From: a virus
DNA: 24,974 nucleotides
Virus record (IMG/VR): IMGVR_UViG_3300007351_000205
Coordinates: 1-24,974 of that record
Strand: one strand, 5' to 3'
Position 1 is the first letter of the stretch, and the number at the start of each line of letters is the position of its first letter. The position numbers and the translations under genes are program-made. Of this stretch, positions 1-23,839 are shown piece by piece. The notes under the pieces are model-generated. The model ran no database searches, was not told where the DNA came from, and worked only from the letters and a program-made list of their open reading frames with translations.

Positions 1-853
1 CCATGCGCCGAAATTTATACAAACTGTACTTGCGGATCACCCGGCAGGTGCGCCAGGTGCGATAGCCGACGAAATTGATGCCGCGGCGGATCTTCTGGAT
101 CGTGGTCTTCGACAGCTCCAGCCGCAGCTCGTTTTTCAGAAACTCGATTATCCGCAGCCGGCAGGACAGGCACTGTTCCCTGGTCAGGCCGACCAGGACA
201 AAATCATCCACATATCGCACGTAATGCCGGACCTTGAGCACCCGCTTGATAAAATGATCCAGTGGGTTGAGGTAAATCAGGGCATAGATCTGGCTGAGCA
301 AATTGCCGATCGGGATGCCGCGCGGCGCATCATGCTCGGCGAACAGCATCATCACGTCCACCAGGCGCCGGTCCTTGATCTTGCGCTCGATCAATCGCCG
401 CAGCGCCGCCCGGTCGATGGAATAAAAAAACTTGCGGACATCGAGCTGCAGGAAATACTCCTCGCCGCCGCACCGGCGCATGGCCTGCTGGGTGTAGTCG
501 CTGGCCCGGTGCGTTCCGTAGCCCTTGCGACAGGCAAAGGATGTGGCGATGAACGTCCGGTCGAACAGCGGGTAGATCACCCGGTAAATGGCATGCTGCA
601 CCACCACGTCGGCGAACGCCGGCGCGTGGATTGTCCGCCTCTTCGGCTCGTAAACCTCGAACTCGAAATACGGCTGCGGCTGGTATGTGCCGGCCATCAG
701 TGCCTTGTGCAGGCACATTATCCGCGCCCCCAGGTGCCGCTCGAATTCAAAGCAGGCGCGTTTATTCCGCTTGCCACGCCGAGCGTCCTCGTAGGCTGCG
801 AGCAGGTTGTCTACGCTGAACGCCTTGTCAAAAAGATTTCCGGCCCGTTTCAT
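1..853 (-). CDS. DGR reverse transcriptase (3' end cut by window edge)
   Basis: This reverse transcriptase should copy the TR-derived RNA into adenine-mutated cDNA that replaces the VR of the target gene. I translated it by hand from the ATG at 853: 284 codons are visible and the frame is still open at the edge. Most of a typical 300-400-aa DGR RT is therefore present. The N-terminus MKRAGNLFDKAFSVDNLLAA and an EPKRRTIHAP segment (about 69-78) are typical of the family. The motif A aspartate is D138 in LQLDVRKFFYSID. The segment GIPIGNLLSQ (179-188) replaces the QG..SP motif of group II intron RTs and is the DGR hallmark. The catalytic box is YVDD (214-217), followed by GINFVGYRTWRTCRV, the usual thumb-entry region. 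It is the last gene of the cassette, 125 bases after the TR. The ribosome site before 853 is weak, so the start rests on the conserved N-terminus. Identification as a DGR RT is firm; the missing C-terminus cannot be judged. Confidence 0.96.
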   Translation of the reverse strand, partial: MKRAGNLFDKAFSVDNLLAAYEDARRGKRNKRACFEFERHLGARIMCLHKALMAGTYQPQPYFEFEVYEPKRRTIHAPAFADVVVQHAIYRVIYPLFDRTFIATSFACRKGYGTHRASDYTQQAMRRCGGEEYFLQLDVRKFFYSIDRAALRRLIERKIKDRRLVDVMMLFAEHDAPRGIPIGNLLSQIYALIYLNPLDHFIKRVLKVRHYVRYVDDFVLVGLTREQCLSCRLRIIEFLKNELRLELSKTTIQKIRRGINFVGYRTWRTCRVIRKYSLYKFRRM

Positions 854-978
854 GCAAACGTCTCACTGGTCTTCGGGCAGCGCCCTACCAAAAAGCGATC
901 CGGTAAAATTTCGCCGTTATGCAGGACAACGCATCCCTGTGGCTCCACTATGCGCAGTTTGCGCTTTGAGGGGAACCG
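854..978 (-). other. TR-RT spacer, probably part of the DGR RNA
   Basis: These 125 bases separate the 3' end of the TR from the RT start and contain no gene. In the well-studied Bordetella phage DGR, the comparable spacer of about 140 nt is part of the RNA bound by RT-Avd and primes cDNA synthesis. The length and position here fit that role, which is inferred. A short perfect hairpin (GCGCA, loop GTT, TGCGC on the plus strand) lies at 952-964, just past the TR. Confidence 0.5.
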
Positions 979-1094
979 TAGTCGAGCCGAACGCCCACGT
1001 TGTTGTTCGAGTTCGTCCGAAAGTTGTTCAAATTGGCGGCCCAGGCCCCGGCATTCGTACTGTTGCTCCAATAGCCGCCGGCCAGCCGAAAACA
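979..1094 (-). repeat. DGR template repeat (TR)
   Basis: This 116-base segment aligns without gaps to the VR at 1545-1660 (constant offset 566), with 106 identities. The ten differences are at 979, 982, 1001, 1004, 1006, 1033, 1034, 1055, 1063 and 1067. All are T on the plus strand, hence A in the sense-strand TR, which has 25 adenines here. No C, G or T of the sense TR differs. Read in the target frame it encodes nine AAY (Asn) codons, the codon class whose mutagenesis gives the widest amino-acid choice without making a stop. It lies 15 bases after the Avd stop and is not itself in a convincing gene. The left boundary could be 979 or 981; at 978 a non-adenine mismatch begins. Confidence 0.97.
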
Positions 1095-1109
1095 TGTTAA
1101 TGCGCTGCC

Positions 1110-1511
1110 CTATTGCCATTTCTTTTCATCCTTCAATCTCTTTATCCAGCCGCCGATCATCCTGCCCAGTTCATCGATCATGGCACTTATCGTCAGGTAC
1201 CTGTGCTTCGCCAGGCCCGAATGGTCATCTTCGGTGCGGCCGTCCTTGAATGCGAAATACCCTAGCTCGTTGGCCAGGTGCAGCTGCATCCGGAGCTGCT
1301 CGTGCGTGATATCCAGACTGCTCAAGGTGGTTTTTTTGAGATACCGTTTTTGCCCTTCGGTGATGAGGTCGTATACTTCATATGCCGTGTTCCTGATCCT
1401 GTTCGCCAGCGCGTATTTTTCGTGTTTTGGAAAATGATTCAAATACACATTCAGCAGCTTGGCGAACTCGATAAATTTACGATTTAATTGTGCTTCTGAA
1501 TCTACACCCAT
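1110..1511 (-). CDS. avd: DGR accessory variability determinant (Avd-like)
   Basis: Avd is a small basic four-helix-bundle protein that forms a pentamer, binds the DGR RT and the TR RNA, and is required for retrohoming in characterised systems. This 133-aa product is predicted all-helical. It carries the FPKHEKYALANRIRNTAYEV segment that resembles the FPK..R/YALG.RI signature of Avd and the related 23S rRNA intervening-sequence proteins. It has many Lys/Arg near its C-terminus (GGWIKRLKDEKKW). I prefer the ATG at 1511 (MGVDSEAQ) over a GTG two codons upstream at 1517; GAG lies five bases before the ATG. It starts 20 bases after the target stop and ends 15 bases before the TR, the same order (target, avd, TR, RT) as in Bordetella phage BPP-1. 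Function is assigned by family and position. Confidence 0.93.
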   Translation of the reverse strand: MGVDSEAQLNRKFIEFAKLLNVYLNHFPKHEKYALANRIRNTAYEVYDLITEGQKRYLKKTTLSSLDITHEQLRMQLHLANELGYFAFKDGRTEDDHSGLAKHRYLTISAMIDELGRMIGGWIKRLKDEKKWQ

Positions 1512-1531
1512 AAACACTCGCTATCGCTCGT

Positions 1532-3178
1532 TCAGCCAATGTAACAGGCGAGCCGAACGCCCACGTCGTGGCTCGAGTTCGTCCGAAAGTTGTTCAAAGG
1601 GGCGGCCCAGGCCCCGGCATACGTACTGCTGCCCCAATAGCCGCCGGCCAGCCGAAAACACTGATCGCGGATATATTGGTAGATAGAGTCCGCACCGAAC
1701 TGGCTTGACCCTACCGCCGACAGCCCGGTGACAAGCGGGAAGCCTGCGCAATCGAGCAGCCATGCCGCCCCGCTTGGCTCCCCTGACAGCACCTGGCCGG
1801 CACCGTTGCCGAATCGCTGCGAGAATCCATTATTCGGATAATCAGTCCTGAACGCCGGAGTCACAGCGTCCATCATCGCAGCCACACCGGTTGTGCCCCA
1901 GTGGTCTGTTGCCGATGCGGTCCCGGATGTAAAATCCTTCATCGCCGTGGTCTGCTTGGCAACATAGAACGTCCCTTTCGTTATCGTCCCAGGGTCGGCC
2001 CCTGCGTCATAGGCAGCATAGGCGGTCGTGTCCGGTGCGGTCTCTAGTGTGAAGGTGTTGGCATCCGGCGTAGCGGCCACGGTCCACAATTTATCCTTGA
2101 AATTTGTCCAATTGGCCTGGGTGATCCCGTTGATCTGTATCACGCTCCCGGCTGATAACCCGTGTCCGGTCACAGTGAAAACTGGCGTCGCTGCCGAGGT
2201 GATGCCTTCAATCGCCGGTGAGGTTGCAACGCAGGTCATCCCGATAACCGGCTCCCACATCAGCCCGTTGACATCCGCCTCGCCGCAATTTTGACCGTTG
2301 CAGGTACTTTTTGCGAACACGTTTCCTGCGCCACCGCCGTACCCTGCGGACCCGGCCTTGCCGCAGTTGCTGTACCCGTCCGACTCCCATTTGACAGACG
2401 TGTCGTTAACGTCCGACAACGCGTTATTATTGCAGCCTTTGGCAAAATTGGCGATCCCGGTAGCGTCGTACCAAGCGCAGTTAGCGGTAGACGTCGCAGC
2501 CTGGGCATGGGCCAGCGCCAGCAGCGCTACCCAGGAACGCTGGAATACCGATGACTGATGCCAGATCGAGCTGGCGTTGGCCGCGCCATCCACCCCGTCC
2601 CTGGCCTTGGCTGCGTTGATCACCTCGTAATATTGATTAACGCTGCACGCGGTAAGATCGGCGATGGGGTTATGATCCGCATGACACGAGATCGGCAGCC
2701 CGTTTTTAACTGAGCTGGCGATGTATCCGGCCCCCCACGCCTGCTTGGAGTTGGGGTACTTGTCCCTGGTAAACCCGCGCACATTGTGCCCGCCGTCGAT
2801 AAACGCTCGGTGCCTGGCATAGCCTGCCGCATTGGCGGCAGCGTCGCTGGAAAAGAACCACTCCGGCTTGATATCTATGGAGTTGACCCCGTAGGTCGCA
2901 TAGGTCGGATTATCGACATGCCCGATCCTGTACCATCCCATGGGCCGCCAGATGCACACCGCACCCGACGCGGTAATATAGTTGCCGTAATTGTCGTGGC
3001 CAAGGATGCGAGTTCCCGGCAACTCAAAAATCCCGTGCGCGGCATGATTAAGCGGGCAGATCCCCACCCCGAACCCGACTCCGCCGGGGGTGCCGATGTG
3101 GTTGAGGCGACCGCCGAACCTCGGCGAAAGCGGATCGCCCTGGCCCGGGCCGAATGGACTATGGATCGGCGGCGACAT
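1532..3178 (-). CDS. DGR target protein, probable receptor-binding tail protein with C-terminal variable C-type-lectin-like domain
   Basis: This 548-aa protein carries the VR in its last codons and is the substrate of the retroelement. The C-terminus reads CFRLAGGYWGSSTYAGAWAA, then PLNNFRTNSSHDVGVRL and a short tail to TGA. The G.W, AGAWA and FR..S...GVRL elements match the C-type-lectin/formylglycine-enzyme-like fold shared by DGR targets. Residues about 325-395 contain a GHGLSAGSVIQINGI segment of the kind found in small beta modules of phage fibres (sometimes annotated E1/FCCH-like). It may be an inserted linker domain. A Gly/Asn/Cys-rich stretch precedes it. There is no signal peptide, so a structural virion role is likely. 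The gene follows fibre and tail-tip genes, placing the product at the adsorption end of the tail. Receptor binding is inferred from that context and from known phage DGRs. Confidence 0.93.
   Translation of the reverse strand: MSPPIHSPFGPGQGDPLSPRFGGRLNHIGTPGGVGFGVGICPLNHAAHGIFELPGTRILGHDNYGNYITASGAVCIWRPMGWYRIGHVDNPTYATYGVNSIDIKPEWFFSSDAAANAAGYARHRAFIDGGHNVRGFTRDKYPNSKQAWGAGYIASSVKNGLPISCHADHNPIADLTACSVNQYYEVINAAKARDGVDGAANASSIWHQSSVFQRSWVALLALAHAQAATSTANCAWYDATGIANFAKGCNNNALSDVNDTSVKWESDGYSNCGKAGSAGYGGGAGNVFAKSTCNGQNCGEADVNGLMWEPVIGMTCVATSPAIEGITSAATPVFTVTGHGLSAGSVIQINGITQANWTNFKDKLWTVAATPDANTFTLETAPDTTAYAAYDAGADPGTITKGTFYVAKQTTAMKDFTSGTASATDHWGTTGVAAMMDAVTPAFRTDYPNNGFSQRFGNGAGQVLSGEPSGAAWLLDCAGFPLVTGLSAVGSSQFGADSIYQYIRDQCFRLAGGYWGSSTYAGAWAAPLNNFRTNSSHDVGVRLACYIG
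1545..1660 (-). repeat. DGR variable repeat (VR)
   Basis: This is the recipient copy of the TR, ending 10 bases before the target stop codon. Relative to the sense TR there are ten adenine substitutions: five A to G, four A to C and one A to T. The coding consequences, in order from the VR 5' end, are Ser to Gly, Asn to Ser, Asn to Tyr, Asn to Pro (both bases), Asn to Ser, Asn to His, Asn to Asp, Asp to Ala and Tyr to Cys. The last codon also differs at one non-adenine at the repeat boundary. The G/C-rich adenine-poor 3' part (sense GTGGGCGTTCGGCTC) is identical in both copies and corresponds to the homing-initiation region of other DGRs. No clear cruciform follows the VR. Confidence 0.97.
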
Positions 3179-3179
3179 C

Positions 3180-3545
3180 TTATCTCACCCAGTCAACGCC
3201 GGCGGCTGACGCCGTGGCCGGCTTGTTGAGCCGGATTGACATGGCCCCGTACATGCTGATAATGTGGTTGGTGCTTGTCAGGCTCTTTGCGTCGGCCCCG
3301 TCGATCTTAAGCTGCTCCCACGCTGATCCGTTCCATCTCTGCAATGTTATGGCCTCGCCATCGGCCAGAACGCCGGTCAGCTGCAGCGATGATCCGAGCC
3401 CCTCGGGGATGATGATCTCCCGTGTCGCCGCGCCAGTCGTCGGCGCGATCAGCTGCGTGGTCGGCCCCCAGGCCAGCGCGTCAGCGGCCGCGATCGGCGT
3501 GCCGCAAAGAATCAGTGCGATTGCGATAACCCGTGCGAATCTCAT
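3180..3545 (-). CDS. small exported or virion-associated protein of unknown function
   Basis: I do not recognise this 121-aa protein. Its N-terminus (MRFARVIAIALILCGTPIAA) has a basic start, a hydrophobic core and a small-residue stretch ending near ADALA, which is a good Sec signal peptide. The mature part would be about 95 residues, beta-rich in appearance and with no cysteines. A strong Shine-Dalgarno (GGGAGGAAAGC) precedes the ATG. The stop is one base from the start of the DGR target, so the two are almost certainly co-translated. A signal peptide is unusual in a block of tail genes. The product might be exported to the periplasm of the lysogen or might chaperone the target, but nothing in the sequence decides between these. 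Confidence 0.8.
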   Translation of the reverse strand: MRFARVIAIALILCGTPIAAADALAWGPTTQLIAPTTGAATREIIIPEGLGSSLQLTGVLADGEAITLQRWNGSAWEQLKIDGADAKSLTSTNHIISMYGAMSIRLNKPATASAAGVDWVR

Positions 3546-3562: not shown

Positions 3563-4759
3563 TTATGTGTAATAGCGCGCGTCCGCAACAAAGTGCGCCC
3601 GTGCCAGCCCAAGATTTGTATTCGCCGCCGTGGTCAATACCGATGCGGAACTCGCGCTAACCTGGCCGGCCGCCGCGGCTATGTCGCCGTCAACCTCGTG
3701 GTCGATCTTGCCGACGGTTCCGGTTGTCGGCGAGTATACGGAGACGGTCGGCCTCGTCCGCATGGGTGCAGGGAATACCAGGCTGAAGCAGGTCCGGTAG
3801 GCGGTTATTGATGCCTGCATGAGTACGTGCCTGCCGTATCCGTCGATCGATCCCGGCTTGACTGCGGTATCGTATGTTTTGAACATATAGGGCGCGCACA
3901 GGGCGCCCTCCTCCTCCCACGATCGAGGAACGTACGGGGACGGATACATCCCCCGCTCCAGCTTCGGCCGCCAGAACGTGCTGGTTCCGGATTTTTTCAA
4001 TTCAAGGAATCCCGAGTTGCCGGATGCGCCCAAAACCCATGTGAATGGCGCGCCAGGGGTAACCGTGGTCCATGTCGTTACCCCCAGGCCATAAATCTGG
4101 ACCGCTCCGGACTGGATGGAGAAGACGACCTGCTCGCCATTTGCGGCAAGGATGTCATCATTTTTCTGCCCAAGCTCGGTCGCGCCAAGGTTGACGTTGC
4201 CGCTGCCGTCGATGCTGTATATCTGCGTAGTGCCTGTCCGGTTGATCCACATGGAATGGGCGTAAACATTGTTTGCGATGGTCGCGACCCCGTCAGCCGG
4301 GTAGGCATCAAAGTTGTGATTGAACCCAGGATTGATCAGGAGGTTCTTTCCGGACTCAGCCACGAACATGAACGGCCTGACCGTGCCGATTCTGTAAATT
4401 GTGCTGGCCCCGGTATCCGCGACAGCCAGCGGGACATAGTCGCCGGTTGGCGGCGAGGTCGATGCGGCAACAGCCCCAGAGCTGTTTACGTACACATAGT
4501 TCAGGCTGTCAGCGGCCAGCGTCACGCTTGCGGCAGCGACCGCATAGCGAACCCCGCCTGTCCACGCGACCAGCGCAGTGTACCCAGCGCTCAGGCCGCC
4601 GCCATCAGACACCAGTCCGCCAGAAATAATTCTGTTGCGCGAATTCAGCGCGCCGGCAACAAAATCCACGATGGCCAGGTTTTCATTCAGCAGGACGTCC
4701 CAATTTGCGTCGTTGTAGGCCTGCGCCCTCAGTTTTAAAAAATTGGTGTAGGTGGTCAT
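3563..4759 (-). CDS. putative tail fibre or tail-associated structural protein
   Basis: This 398-aa product begins MTTYTNFLKLRAQAYNDANW and has a central stretch with LNYVYVNSSGAVAASTSPPT, a pattern often seen in phage fibre or appendage N-termini that attach to the tail tip. The second half (from about residue 130) contains an NLLINPGFNHNFDAYP segment. This resembles the NLLINGNF.. motif that opens carbohydrate-binding-like domains of many tail fibres, followed by beta-rich sequence. No enzymatic motif is visible. The gene has a GAGGGA ribosome site within the preceding stop region and sits between a tail-tip block and the DGR target. Assignment as a fibre is from composition, motif and position. 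Confidence 0.72.
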   Translation of the reverse strand: MTTYTNFLKLRAQAYNDANWDVLLNENLAIVDFVAGALNSRNRIISGGLVSDGGGLSAGYTALVAWTGGVRYAVAAASVTLAADSLNYVYVNSSGAVAASTSPPTGDYVPLAVADTGASTIYRIGTVRPFMFVAESGKNLLINPGFNHNFDAYPADGVATIANNVYAHSMWINRTGTTQIYSIDGSGNVNLGATELGQKNDDILAANGEQVVFSIQSGAVQIYGLGVTTWTTVTPGAPFTWVLGASGNSGFLELKKSGTSTFWRPKLERGMYPSPYVPRSWEEEGALCAPYMFKTYDTAVKPGSIDGYGRHVLMQASITAYRTCFSLVFPAPMRTRPTVSVYSPTTGTVGKIDHEVDGDIAAAAGQVSASSASVLTTAANTNLGLARAHFVADARYYT

Positions 4760-4769
4760 ATTATTTCCC

Positions 4770-5237
4770 TCAAAAGCTGATTTCCCACTGGCACACCAGT
4801 ATGCTTCCGCTCGGCTTGCTGATGGTCGGCGATATCAGTACCCTGGAAAAGAGGACGCTGCCAAAAAACAGCCCTGCCTCTGCCAGCGTCCCGACTGCTT
4901 CGTCCGTGTCAAAAAATGCCCTGGCGAAAATTTTATGACTGTCGGTGCCAAAACCCTGCCACGGAACCCGAACCAGACTTGCACTGGCCAGCTGCGACGA
5001 CAGCGCGGTGTCCCCGACGACCGGAGCCGCATTGCCAGTGCCCACCGCTATTGCAGTTAGGTTCTGCTGTCCTGTTGATCCGGCGGCCCTAGCTGCCAGC
5101 CATTTTTTCCCCTCGTTAACGATCAGGTTGTCGATTCGTCTGCCGGCAATGACCAGCAGGCTGTCAGATTGAATCAGCCACGCGGAAAAAACCCCCTTCG
5201 CCATGACCGAATCAGATATCAGGTTATTATGCTCCAT
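4770..5237 (-). CDS. phage tail-associated protein of unknown function
   Basis: The 155-aa protein starts MEHNNLISDSVMAKGVFSAW and contains a GRRIDNLIVNEGKKWLAARA segment followed by TAIAVGTGNAAPVVGDTALS. That last kind of sequence (a G.G....V.GDT.L motif) is common in small baseplate-wedge-side or fibre-adaptor proteins of siphophages. I chose the ATG at 5237 rather than the longer frame reaching 5339, because GAGGGGGGT immediately precedes this ATG and the longer version would overlap the upstream gene by more than 100 bases. It overlaps the stop of the upstream 782-aa gene by 11 bases. The C-terminus (PSGSILVCQWEISF) looks like a compact beta domain. Specific role unknown. Confidence 0.75.
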   Translation of the reverse strand: MEHNNLISDSVMAKGVFSAWLIQSDSLLVIAGRRIDNLIVNEGKKWLAARAAGSTGQQNLTAIAVGTGNAAPVVGDTALSSQLASASLVRVPWQGFGTDSHKIFARAFFDTDEAVGTLAEAGLFFGSVLFSRVLISPTISKPSGSILVCQWEISF

Positions 5238-7575
5238 ACCCCCCCTCGCCGTACCCTCCGGCCCCGTACCCGGTTCCGTCCAGAGTGCCTGAGAATTGTT
5301 CTGTCGCCGCAATCGTGTCCGCCAGGCCAGCCTCAACAACGGATCTGACAGAGGCCTTGATTGTTATCCTGAACAGGTTGATTCCCCCGTTTTTCCCAGA
5401 ACCAAAAACCCGCGTCAGACCGGTGATGTCGCCCTTGATGACCTTGAATTTGCTGAACTCAGTATGCAGGACTACCACATCGTCAAACTCAAGCGGAAAC
5501 GCTTCCAGGTAGGTATTGAATGTCACCAGGGCGAAAGGGTTCGCCCATTCCGCAATGTAGAAATTGGCCAGGGCTGTGGCCATGGTCCCATCGTTCACCA
5601 GGTAGAAGTCAAGGACCGCTTCCTGCAGGCCGAATTTGTCGATGGATGCCTGATCCTTGACCTCCTTGACGGCCGTGTAACTGGCCAGCACGTCAGTGGC
5701 CGCATAGCGGATCTGCACCTTATTCAGCACGTCGCGGACGCTCTGCCTTGCCACTCCGATGGATTTCTGCTGCGTGCTGGCTGCGGTGAAGTGGAGGTTG
5801 ATGTCCTTGTCCGCAACATTCTTCCTGATTATCAGCTTGATGCCGCCGCCGTTATATATCAGCCGGGCACGGCACTGCTGGCACATAGCAACCAACACTT
5901 CCCGGCATCGCATATCGCCGGGGATGAACCCGTTGAAAGAGTAACCATTAGTGGTGAACCAGGTTTTTGCCGTGGCAAATGTCGCCGCATCGATGGCCCC
6001 GGCAATCCCGATGATCCCCAATACCGAGGTGATGGCATCGGCCGGGTTGGTGTTGCCGGTACCCGATGACAGGTCGCAGGTGAGATTCGTTGAATGGGTC
6101 TTAATGTACGGTTTGTACTGTATTTCACAGCGAACCATATCCAGTTGGCACAGCGTCCGCGAATATGCCGATGAATAGTTGGTCTGACAAAGTGCTTCGA
6201 GCCGTATTTGGTATCCGGTTTTCGCACCACTCCAGCCGCGCGACGTCTGGTCCATGGTCAAATCGAAATCCCCGGCGCCGGATTCTGTTTTCGAGTCGCT
6301 CGCCTCCCAGTATCCTGATACCCCGATCACCCTGACGAATCCCCAATCCTGCATGGTGATCACTCCGCCGTTCGTTTGATATCCGTTGAGTTTAACCTTT
6401 GCAGATACCAACTCGGCGTGGCTTGCTATACCCTCAGATATTCCGGTCGACTGTTGTGCCTCCTGCCATGCGTAAACCGCATTGATAGTCCAGCTGCTGG
6501 CGGTCCTGGTAGCCATACGAAATACACCGTTGTCGGACTGGATTGCTGCGCTGGTGTTGTTCTCCCAGGTGACAGTTCCTCCCACCGACCCTGCCGTGAA
6601 ATTATCGGCATTATTGGTCACCGCGGTGCTGCTCGTCGATTTGATCCACGGGTCACCATGCAGGAAGCCAACTTGAACCGGATTACGGTCCTTGTAAATC
6701 GTATGCGGCCCGGAGTATACCACCCCGTCAACATAGACCGGCCCCACGACTGGCAACGGCCCCTGTCCGAACGAATACAGATACTCGTGGTTGTACTTGA
6801 ACACCTTTTGCCCGGAGCTATGCGGGAACGCAGCCGACCAGGTGGTGCCTGCGCTTACCCCCCTGGTGCAGCCGGTGAAGCTGTTGCCGGAGATGCCTGT
6901 ATAGCTGATCTGCTCAAAATCGATGACGATGGACCCAGGAGCGGTAAACCCTGCCGTGGCCGGGCTGGATGTGCAGGCGATGGTCGTGGCGGCGGCGGAC
7001 AGGTCGCCGGCCAGTTCCACAACAGGCCTGGCTCCATATTGAGATCCTGGGGCGTTGGATACGGAGCCGATCACTACCCCGTAGAAATTATTGTCCTCAG
7101 TGGACAGCTGCCCGATATACGGGTCCGCCCTCTGGTTGAGGGATACCAGATCCAGCGCCAGGAGGAGGCTGGCCTCGCTGTATTCAATGGGATCCTGGAC
7201 AATGAACCTGTCGATGAGCACTTTCGCGCTTTCCGGCGTCCCATCAAACCATTGATAGAGAGACACCTCGGTGTTTTCAGGCGCCTCGTCGTTGAATCTG
7301 GAGGAAAAGGGAATCGCCCCGATATTCAACAGGGTGACCGTGGCCTGCCTGGTGCCCTGGTTGGTCCCTCTGATCACGTCCTCGATGGTGCTTGTGTCTG
7401 CCAGCTCTCCCCAATTTTCGACAATGGGCAGGTATGCGTTTGCCAGGGCCGACCCGTATTCCTGGTCCGACACGTAGATCGTGCCTGACGCAAAGGCGAA
7501 CTCAAGCAGCTGGCGCGGCTTCCGCCCCTGCCTGGCCAGTTCGGCAAGGAACTCCTGGGGGAGATCCGTGCGCAT
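5227..7575 (-). CDS. large tail-tip / hub-like structural protein
   Basis: This 782-aa product is the largest protein encoded in the window. Its first 150 residues (QEFLAELARQGRKPRQLLEF..., with DRFIVQDPIEYSEASLLLAL) match the style of tail-tip or distal-tail proteins that meet the tail tube. Residues about 185-260 contain a module ending FTGCTRG..AGT, a recurrent beta module in phage tip proteins. A later part (about 540-600) has MRCREVLVAMCQQCRARLIY and GGGIKLIIRK, typical of hub-like proteins. The extreme C-terminus is a Gly/Tyr repeat (GYGAGGYGEGGYGA). Its start overlaps the stop of the 122-aa gene (ATGA). Position after the tape measure is where siphophages encode distal tail and hub proteins. 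A host-attachment or hub role is inferred. Confidence 0.75.
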   Translation of the reverse strand: MRTDLPQEFLAELARQGRKPRQLLEFAFASGTIYVSDQEYGSALANAYLPIVENWGELADTSTIEDVIRGTNQGTRQATVTLLNIGAIPFSSRFNDEAPENTEVSLYQWFDGTPESAKVLIDRFIVQDPIEYSEASLLLALDLVSLNQRADPYIGQLSTEDNNFYGVVIGSVSNAPGSQYGARPVVELAGDLSAAATTIACTSSPATAGFTAPGSIVIDFEQISYTGISGNSFTGCTRGVSAGTTWSAAFPHSSGQKVFKYNHEYLYSFGQGPLPVVGPVYVDGVVYSGPHTIYKDRNPVQVGFLHGDPWIKSTSSTAVTNNADNFTAGSVGGTVTWENNTSAAIQSDNGVFRMATRTASSWTINAVYAWQEAQQSTGISEGIASHAELVSAKVKLNGYQTNGGVITMQDWGFVRVIGVSGYWEASDSKTESGAGDFDLTMDQTSRGWSGAKTGYQIRLEALCQTNYSSAYSRTLCQLDMVRCEIQYKPYIKTHSTNLTCDLSSGTGNTNPADAITSVLGIIGIAGAIDAATFATAKTWFTTNGYSFNGFIPGDMRCREVLVAMCQQCRARLIYNGGGIKLIIRKNVADKDINLHFTAASTQQKSIGVARQSVRDVLNKVQIRYAATDVLASYTAVKEVKDQASIDKFGLQEAVLDFYLVNDGTMATALANFYIAEWANPFALVTFNTYLEAFPLEFDDVVVLHTEFSKFKVIKGDITGLTRVFGSGKNGGINLFRITIKASVRSVVEAGLADTIAATEQFSGTLDGTGYGAGGYGEGGYGA

Positions 7576-22537: not shown

Positions 22538-22768
22538 TTACAGCTTCGCTTCCGCCGCGTGCAGGGTCTCGATCAGGCCGTCCAGGATCAGGACCAGGCC
22601 GAAGCACGCTTCCTGCGTCAGGGGCCGCTCGCCCTTGGCGTCGGCAAAGGTCTCGGAGAGAAAGGTCAGCACGTGCCGGGCCGTGCCGATCTCATTGTCC
22701 GCGCCGGACAGCTCCCCGAACATCGGCGGGATATGCAGGCCCCGGGCCTGCTGGGCCTGGGCGCTCAT
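22538..22768 (-). CDS. small protein of unknown function downstream of Rha-like regulator
   Basis: A 76-aa protein read from the ATG at 22768 (MSAQAQQARGLHIPPMFGEL); a GTG one codon earlier is possible. The end of the Rha gene and this start share a base (TGATG), which indicates re-initiation. The C-terminal half (EACFGLVLILDGLIETLHAA) is helical and amphipathic. It resembles no family I can name. The coupling suggests it functions alongside the regulator. Confidence 0.72.
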   Translation of the reverse strand: MSAQAQQARGLHIPPMFGELSGADNEIGTARHVLTFLSETFADAKGERPLTQEACFGLVLILDGLIETLHAAEAKL

Positions 22769-23502
22769 CACAGCACCCCGAGCCCGCGCACCATTTTCAG
22801 GATAGTGCCATGGCGGCGGTCCTTGCGCTCCGTCTTGCGGACGGGGATGCCGGTCTGGTACAGCGCCTTGAAGAAGTTGTTGTAGTCATAGGGCACTTCG
22901 CCGTTTTCGCCGCACCATGCCTCGTACTGGCGATAGAGCACGTACTTCTCGCACAGGGCGTTGCAATCGACGGCGCAGTGCCTGTCGATGAAGTTGCGGA
23001 TATGATCGGTGGAAAAGGTGTACATCGGTTTTGCATGGCCGCCGGCTGGTACCAGGTCGCCCTGGGCGACCAGCTTGCCGACCTTGACCATGAGATCGGA
23101 CATGACGCTGATCAGGTTCTGGATCACCGGCGTGTCGAGCATGGCCTGGTGCAGGTCCGCGCTGCTGCCTTTCATGACCGCCGCCTCCATCTGGTTGAAG
23201 GCCGCGATATACGCCTCCCGCCAGCGGACCGCAGGCGCGCCGGTGAAGCCGAAGGCCAGCATGGTGAAGCCGTCCCTGGTCATTTCAACCATGGGCAGCA
23301 TCCTGCCGGTGGGGTCCTTGTATTCACTGGGCGCAAGATTGCGCTCAGTGAACTCGGCTGAACACTCAAGATTGTAGATCGCCCGGAGGACGTCCTTGTG
23401 TTTTTTGTCGAAGAAGTTGGCCACATCCAGCGAGGTGGTGAAGATCCTGCCGCCCTTGACCGTGAGGTGTTTCTTGATGGTGCTGATCTGTTTCTGATCC
23501 AT
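22768..23502 (-). CDS. Rha-family phage regulatory protein with primase-like C-terminal region
   Basis: This 244-aa protein has an N-terminal Rha domain (residues about 22-110): TTSLDVANFFDKKHKDVLRA, ECSAEFTERNLAPSEYKD, GRMLPMVEMTRDGFTMLAFG FTG and YIAAFNQMEA are all family landmarks. Rha proteins are antirepressor-like phage regulators whose presence affects lytic growth in some hosts. The C-terminal third, IRNFIDRHCAVDCNALCEKY and YRQYEAWCGENGEVPYDYNN followed by a F..AL...G..VRKT..K pattern, resembles the winged-helix end of D5/P4-type primases. A strong AGGAGG lies seven bases before the ATG at 23502. A longer frame to 23808 overlaps the structured leader and is rejected. The leader is likely to regulate translation (see RNA entry). 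Confidence 0.87.
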   Translation of the reverse strand: MDQKQISTIKKHLTVKGGRIFTTSLDVANFFDKKHKDVLRAIYNLECSAEFTERNLAPSEYKDPTGRMLPMVEMTRDGFTMLAFGFTGAPAVRWREAYIAAFNQMEAAVMKGSSADLHQAMLDTPVIQNLISVMSDLMVKVGKLVAQGDLVPAGGHAKPMYTFSTDHIRNFIDRHCAVDCNALCEKYVLYRQYEAWCGENGEVPYDYNNFFKALYQTGIPVRKTERKDRRHGTILKMVRGLGVL

Positions 23503-23748
23503 GGTGCTGCCTCCTGTACGAAGAATTAAGAAATTCCCCGCCCATCGCTGCAAAACGAAAATGGGCGGACATGCGGGTTTGCAGACCGAGGTACAGGACC
23601 CGGCGAGCCCGAAGGCTCCCCGCATGGCCACCCAAGAAGGAGCCATGCCACGGACACAAAAAAACCGCCAAGACTGAGCTGGTGGCGGTGTGTCCGCCTG
23701 TACGATTCGGGCTGCAACCCCGGCCGCCGGTATCCCGACGACATGAGT
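23503..23748 (-). ncRNA. hairpin-rich leader, candidate C4/CI-type antisense RNA
   Basis: This transcribed, gene-free leader upstream of rha has four stems: ACCGCCA/TGGCGGT followed by seven Ts (23658-23689), GCATGGC/GCCATGC (23622-23648), GAGCC/GGCTC with a UUCG-like loop (23605-23618) and CCGCCCAT/ATGGGCGG (23538-23568). The minus-strand RNA has UCCUGUAC (23591-23598), complementary to GUACAGGA over the rha ribosome site (23512-23519). It also pairs with seven bases of a second near-copy of that site at 23687-23705 (15 of 19 identical). This is the logic of P1/P4 C4/CI RNAs, which silence antirepressor translation. Structure and complementarity are seen; RNA identity is inferred. Confidence 0.55.
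23658..23689 (-). terminator. intrinsic terminator-like hairpin within the rha leader
   Basis: Minus-strand ACCGCCA, a 12-base loop, TGGCGGT and T7. Transcription from the promoter at 23749-23778 would reach it about 60-85 bases after the start. It could end a short RNA or attenuate rha. Confidence 0.6.
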
Positions 23749-23778
23749 ATGGTAGCCCAAACGATCAGCATTTGTCAA
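23749..23778 (-). promoter_or_regulatory. sigma70-type promoter for the rha leader
   Basis: Minus strand: perfect TTGACA (plus 23773-23778), an 18-base spacer and TACCAT (plus 23749-23754, four of six consensus). It points at the leader and rha. The -35 overlaps that of the divergent promoter. Confidence 0.65.
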
Positions 23779-23800
23779 GCGGGTCATTTTGTGATAGCCT
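23772..23800 (+). promoter_or_regulatory. sigma70-type promoter for the plus-strand accessory genes
   Basis: TTGTCA (23772-23777), a 17-base spacer and TAGCCT (23795-23800) with an upstream TG (extended -10). It lies 40-68 bases before the ATG at 23840. Confidence 0.55.
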
Positions 23801-23839
23801 TTACACATCGTTTAAGCATTCAAAAAAAAGGAGGGTCTT

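Follow-up and report, generated by a model that had tools for sequence, protein, structure and literature searches.

A phage tail operon carrying a diversity-generating retroelement of the BPP-1 type, with tandem G-A mismatches in the hairpin that follows its variable repeat

The described system with which the present locus is most readily compared is the diversity-generating retroelement (DGR) of Bordetella phage BPP-1, annotated in the order mtd-avd-TR-brt. In that phage a spacer RNA (sp) between the template repeat (TR) and the reverse transcriptase (RT) gene is required (PMC12875486), as is a hairpin following the variable repeat (VR), for which the published phage examples have GC-rich stems of 7-10 bp and GRNA loops (PMC3240598); that of BPP-1 itself has a perfect 8-bp stem and a GAAA loop. 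The name IMH, used below for the adenine-free 3' end of VR, is likewise taken by analogy with BPP-1 (PMC3240598), where this segment is all G+C. Other useful comparisons are the DGR variable protein TaqVP of Thermus aquaticus (PDB 5vf4), the DGR of Pseudomonas phage Bise (L142), and six phage DGRs from IMG/VR (L003-L008).

The DNA analysed here (the window, 24,974 nt) is an entire contig, G000:C36, from a 2.6 Mb genome assembly that is 74% complete, and positions 1-3178 of it carry, on the minus strand, a BPP-1-type DGR within a phage tail operon (Table 1). The DGR has tail-fibre-like genes as neighbours, and head, portal and terminase genes lie beyond them, which marks the contig as a portion of a tailed-phage genome. 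On the minus strand the target gene with its terminal VR is followed by the post-VR hairpin, avd, TR, the spacer RNA and finally the RT gene; target gene, avd, TR and RT succeed one another as in BPP-1, as a preliminary description based on the sequence had stated. That description also held the system to be complete apart from the C-terminus of the RT, which stands in so far as all the parts are present and the cut is the end of the contig; its list of parts, however, lacked the post-VR hairpin, the spacer RNA and the likelier start codon of avd. The RT C-terminus (about 50 residues, judging from the 331-339 aa of intact RTs in relatives) is missing because the window is the whole contig and the assembly ends there.

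Table 1 Positions of the DGR components and neighbouring genes in the window.
Feature	Positions	Strand	Remarks
DGR reverse transcriptase (RT)	2..853	(-)	284 aa present; C-terminus cut at contig end
Spacer RNA, TR-RT interval (putative)	854..978	(-)	Conserved fold with covariation
Template repeat (TR)	979..1094	(-)	From TR/VR alignment
avd, accessory variability determinant	1110..1511	(-)	ATG at 1511 likelier; GTG at 1517 also readable
Target-site hairpin (likely)	1516..1531	(-)	ACGAGC-GATA-GCGAGT; tandem G-A/A-G mismatch within stem
DGR target (variable) protein	1532..3178	(-)	548 aa; predicted C-type lectin fold, TaqVP type
Variable repeat (VR)	1545..1660	(-)	Target codons 507-545; from TR/VR alignment
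IMH-like 3' part of VR	1549..1566	(-)	18 nt without adenine, same as TR 983-1000
Tail-fibre-like genes (context)	3563..5339	(-)	PHROG 4492, 5417, 4176

Two further features of the contig may be recorded. Immediately upstream of the target gene lies an ORF of 121 aa (window 3180-3545, minus strand) whose start resembles a signal peptide and for which profile searches found no family. Near the far end, Rfam identifies a C4 antisense RNA (23562-23639, minus strand; 48.1 bits against a gathering threshold of 45) inside the 5' part of a Rha/antirepressor ORF (22768-23808), which resembles the immunity arrangement of P1/P7 and suggests a temperate phage; on the basis of this Rha-type regulator with its C4 RNA the phage is probably temperate. 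Nothing in Rfam matched at the DGR.

The evidence most characteristic of a DGR lies in the two repeats, which are 116 nt each (minus-strand sense, offset 566) and differ at 10 sites, every one of them an adenine in TR (five have become G in VR, four C and one T). With adenine at 25 of the 116 TR positions, the hypergeometric probability of an all-adenine outcome is 4.0e-8, which puts a figure on the earlier statement that ten of ten would be very unlikely at random. When the repeat is read in the frame of the target, codons for asparagine or serine of the sort typical of DGR templates (AAC, AAT, AGC) hold 8 of the 10 differences, and the remaining two occupy the final two codons of the repeat; the resulting changes of residue from TR to VR include S516G, N517S, N520Y, N527P, N536S, N537H, N538D and D544A. 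TR and VR share the adenine-free IMH-like end, which unlike that of BPP-1 is not all G+C, and diverge past it (IMH versus IMH*).

As expected for such a system, VR forms the 3' end of the gene for a variable protein, and this protein models as a C-type lectin fold. A phmmer search of the target against the PDB gave no matches, but a fold search did find relatives: for an AlphaFold2 model built from 34 aligned sequences (pLDDT 89), the closest solved fold was TaqVP (Z 30.1 over 301 residues, 2.9 A), followed by other proteins of C-type lectin fold including Mtd (Z 12.3) and a Treponema variable protein (Z about 12). On the model, then, the nearest DGR protein would be TaqVP, from which the window target differs in possessing an inserted beta domain (residues about 317-402) of a kind known also from ubiquitin E1 enzymes and from the tail proteins of phages. 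This inserted segment is skipped in alignments of some relatives (L038, L039, L059). Homologues of the target adjoin DGR RTs in relatives.

The accessory protein is likewise present: Avd was recognised by the Pfam bAvd profile (E 1e-16, over its cut-off) and by PHROG 3206, and the NCBIfam Avd model gave 75 bits, just below its cut-off of 80. The interval between TR and RT can be aligned across 32 relatives, with double changes in 15 of 25 predicted pairs, and would be expected to act as a spacer RNA like the sp of BPP-1.

Taken as a whole the locus resembles the BPP-1 DGR in gene order, repeat length class, Avd, spacer RNA, adenine-specific TR/VR differences, post-VR hairpin and the tail-region setting of its target, and differs in having an RT only 39% identical and a predicted TaqVP-like target where BPP-1 has Mtd. 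The Bise DGR (RT 62% identical to that of the window) and those of L003-L008 (84-89%) are alike in layout, and the targets of L005, L007 and L008 are 56-60% identical to that of the window; the VR sequences of all these differ from the one described here, as expected. The original observation is thus confirmed and its interpretation as a DGR supported, and it is very nearly certain that this is a BPP-1-type DGR of a tailed phage, by which the target lectin domain is varied through rewriting of VR. By analogy with BPP-1, RT together with Avd would copy an RNA that spans TR, the spacer and the last part of avd, making errors where the template has adenine; the resulting cDNA would then take the place of VR in the 3' terminal part of the tail-protein gene (retrohoming), TR remaining as the master copy, so that the ligand-binding face of the C-type lectin domain could be varied at about 15 codons and tropism might be switched. 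The hairpin right after VR, with its GATA loop, would mark the target.

This hairpin is where the locus departs from the published description, the DGR itself being ordinary. Its 4-nt GATA loop is of the GRNA type, but its stem consists of 2 bp, a tandem G-A/A-G mismatch and 2 further bp, instead of the continuous Watson-Crick stem of 7-10 bp of the published rule (PMC3240598). The hairpin of Bise has a perfect stem. With DNA folding parameters the mismatched hairpin comes out much weaker, at about -3.5 kcal/mol, against about -9.5 kcal/mol for perfect stems. Tandem G-A pairs in such a context would, however, be more stable than nearest-neighbour tables suggest. The window hairpin likely marks the DGR target, with a role in homing like that of its BPP-1 counterpart. 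In a search of the text of the open-access literature, no account of a DGR hairpin with G-A pairs came to light.

A survey of 235 DGR loci indicates that the window is far from alone in this respect. The strict G-A motif occurs at the post-VR site in 99 of them, against an expectation of 0.24 from shuffles, and on the antisense strand at that site in none of the 235; across all 1.68 Mb of these loci there are 111 sense-strand occurrences, and therefore most sit at the post-VR site. (The hairpin survey behind the classification that follows gave the motif a scoring bonus; the strict count of 99 was made without it.) When 182 distinct post-VR sequences were classified by the two stem pairs concerned, 91 proved to be Watson-Crick at both, 60 tandem G-A and 18 other, with no call for 13. 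Of 67 distinct contexts with the G-A frame, 63 have Watson-Crick bases at both inner pairs; pairing in the outer stem exceeds that of shuffles, and in one sub-form it spans a bulge of one base. On the RT tree there have been at least 5 switches between G-A and perfect stems, counting well-supported branches, or 14 by parsimony. In a scan of IMG/VR that took no account of RTs, 44 of 71 matches to the 16-mer TGAGCGATAGCGATGG lay on the same strand as a DGR RT and about 640-770 nt upstream of it; the 14-mer CGAGCGATAGCGAG is not diagnostic alone (10 of 119 sampled matches near a DGR RT). Fresh VR variation is also seen in DGRs of the G-A class, for example L068/L070, L185-L193 and L210-L217.

Tandem sheared G-A pairs would be stable on the sense strand only, their antisense counterparts being C-T mismatches. 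It is from this chemistry, together with the motif's absence from the antisense strand at the post-VR site, that strand specificity is argued; folding energies from DNA parameters offer no support for a strong difference between the strands, the mean gap between sense and antisense folding energies being 1.0 kcal/mol in the G-A class and 0.7 kcal/mol for perfect stems. A tentative proposal, the chances of which seem clearly short of even, is that a large proportion of phage DGRs mark the target not by a perfect stem but by a sense-strand hairpin built from sheared G-A pairs in tandem, of the pattern YGAR...GRTA...YGA, in some cases with a bulge of one base, and that, since such pairs would be stable on the sense strand alone, the machinery reads a single-stranded sense hairpin and not a symmetric cruciform.

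The motif might instead be part of the mRNA, as an avd translation signal or a stop/start overlap, given that it sits between the target stop and the avd start, that in 19 of 58 distinct contexts its 3' GA lies inside a GATG whose ATG could start avd, and that in other contexts the 3' arm is within ribosome-binding-site range. We consider this unlikely, as the motif lies past the target stop in 53 of the 58 and overlaps neither codon in 34, its loop and position agree with the proven target hairpin of BPP-1 (PMC3240598), on the RT tree perfect-stem forms stand in its stead at that position, and covariation is seen in both the inner and the outer pairs. An overlap with coding sequence does not account for the motif in most of the contexts tested.

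Returning to the DGR as a whole, the variation of VR was followed in near relatives, the preliminary description having suggested looking for changes confined to TR adenine positions in host populations or induced lysates. Among the 80 nearest IMG/VR relatives of the RT, 72 have a TR/VR pair of the same geometry, so this layout is a common one among phage DGRs; of the remaining eight, seven are short of upstream sequence and one, L003, has TR and VR that differ in part at sites other than adenines. In 82 locus pairs with near-identical flanks (not all of them independent, as several contigs recur in further pairs or loci) there are 49 differences in 93,976 flanking bases, as against 650 in the VRs, of which 629 fall on TR adenines. 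A particularly simple case is L005 versus L006 (RTs 89% identical to that of the window), which over 1846 nt differ at just 5 positions, each of them a VR site where TR has adenine. The support for mutagenic retrohoming is thus comparative and drawn from relatives, whose VR variation indicates that the system works in nature.

Two pairs of loci differ in TR. The VR and flanks of L074 and L076 are identical, and 8 sites distinguish their TRs; L076 has A at every one of these, and at four of them the L074 base is unlike VR too; TR may itself have been mutagenised, or one contig may be chimeric. The TRs of L046 and L047 differ at 4 sites, where that of L046 equals its own VR, which would fit either VR-to-TR conversion or an assembly chimera.

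It must be remembered that a single copy cannot show activity, and with an RT cut at the contig end the DGR of this particular phage could be imagined as a dead relic whose VR changes are old and which no longer diversifies its target. This is nevertheless very improbable: every ORF is open and the motifs are intact, TR and VR differ at adenines alone with no decay elsewhere in VR, and close relatives are active.

The RT itself belongs with those of the DGRs. The motifs noted at the outset, YVDD and GIPIGN..SQ, were found as YVDD and GIPIGNLLSQ, and the protein matches PF00078 (RVT_1; E 1e-16) and the phage RT family PHROG 1423 (E 1e-102), its best PDB sequence match being the bRT of BPP-1 (8ub7, E 1.6e-56), compared with 1.3e-19 for the group II RT LtrA. 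Placing the RT in a phylogeny, also suggested in the preliminary description, bore this out: against a contrast set of four group II intron RTs and the second RT of the same genome, it falls in a clade composed only of DGR RTs (BPP-1, ANMV-1, VP585 and others) with support of 100/100. Membership among retron and defence RTs, examined by profile alone, was not found. An origin of the RT in a group II intron, retron or defence system, with coincidental repeats, would be favoured by weak scores to group II and DRT models (those in NCBIfam all far under their cut-offs), but is refuted by the RT phylogeny and the adenine bias, is contradicted as well by Avd, the TR/VR pair, the hairpin and the spacer RNA, and is vanishingly improbable. 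The second RT (L002; G000:C90:10151-10735), which lies inside an open frame of 903 aa, sits at the end of a very long branch and shows a loose affinity to the group II RTs.

The DGR of this window is thus one more well-supported phage example, and its near relatives document with unusual clarity how diversification in nature is confined to adenines. Its hairpin variant touches on the structure of the DGR target site and the strand on which that site is read: if functional, the G-A hairpin loosens the published perfect-stem rule and broadens the search pattern for DGR targets, and reading of the sense-strand hairpin, if true, would accord with homing into single-stranded DNA of the lagging strand.
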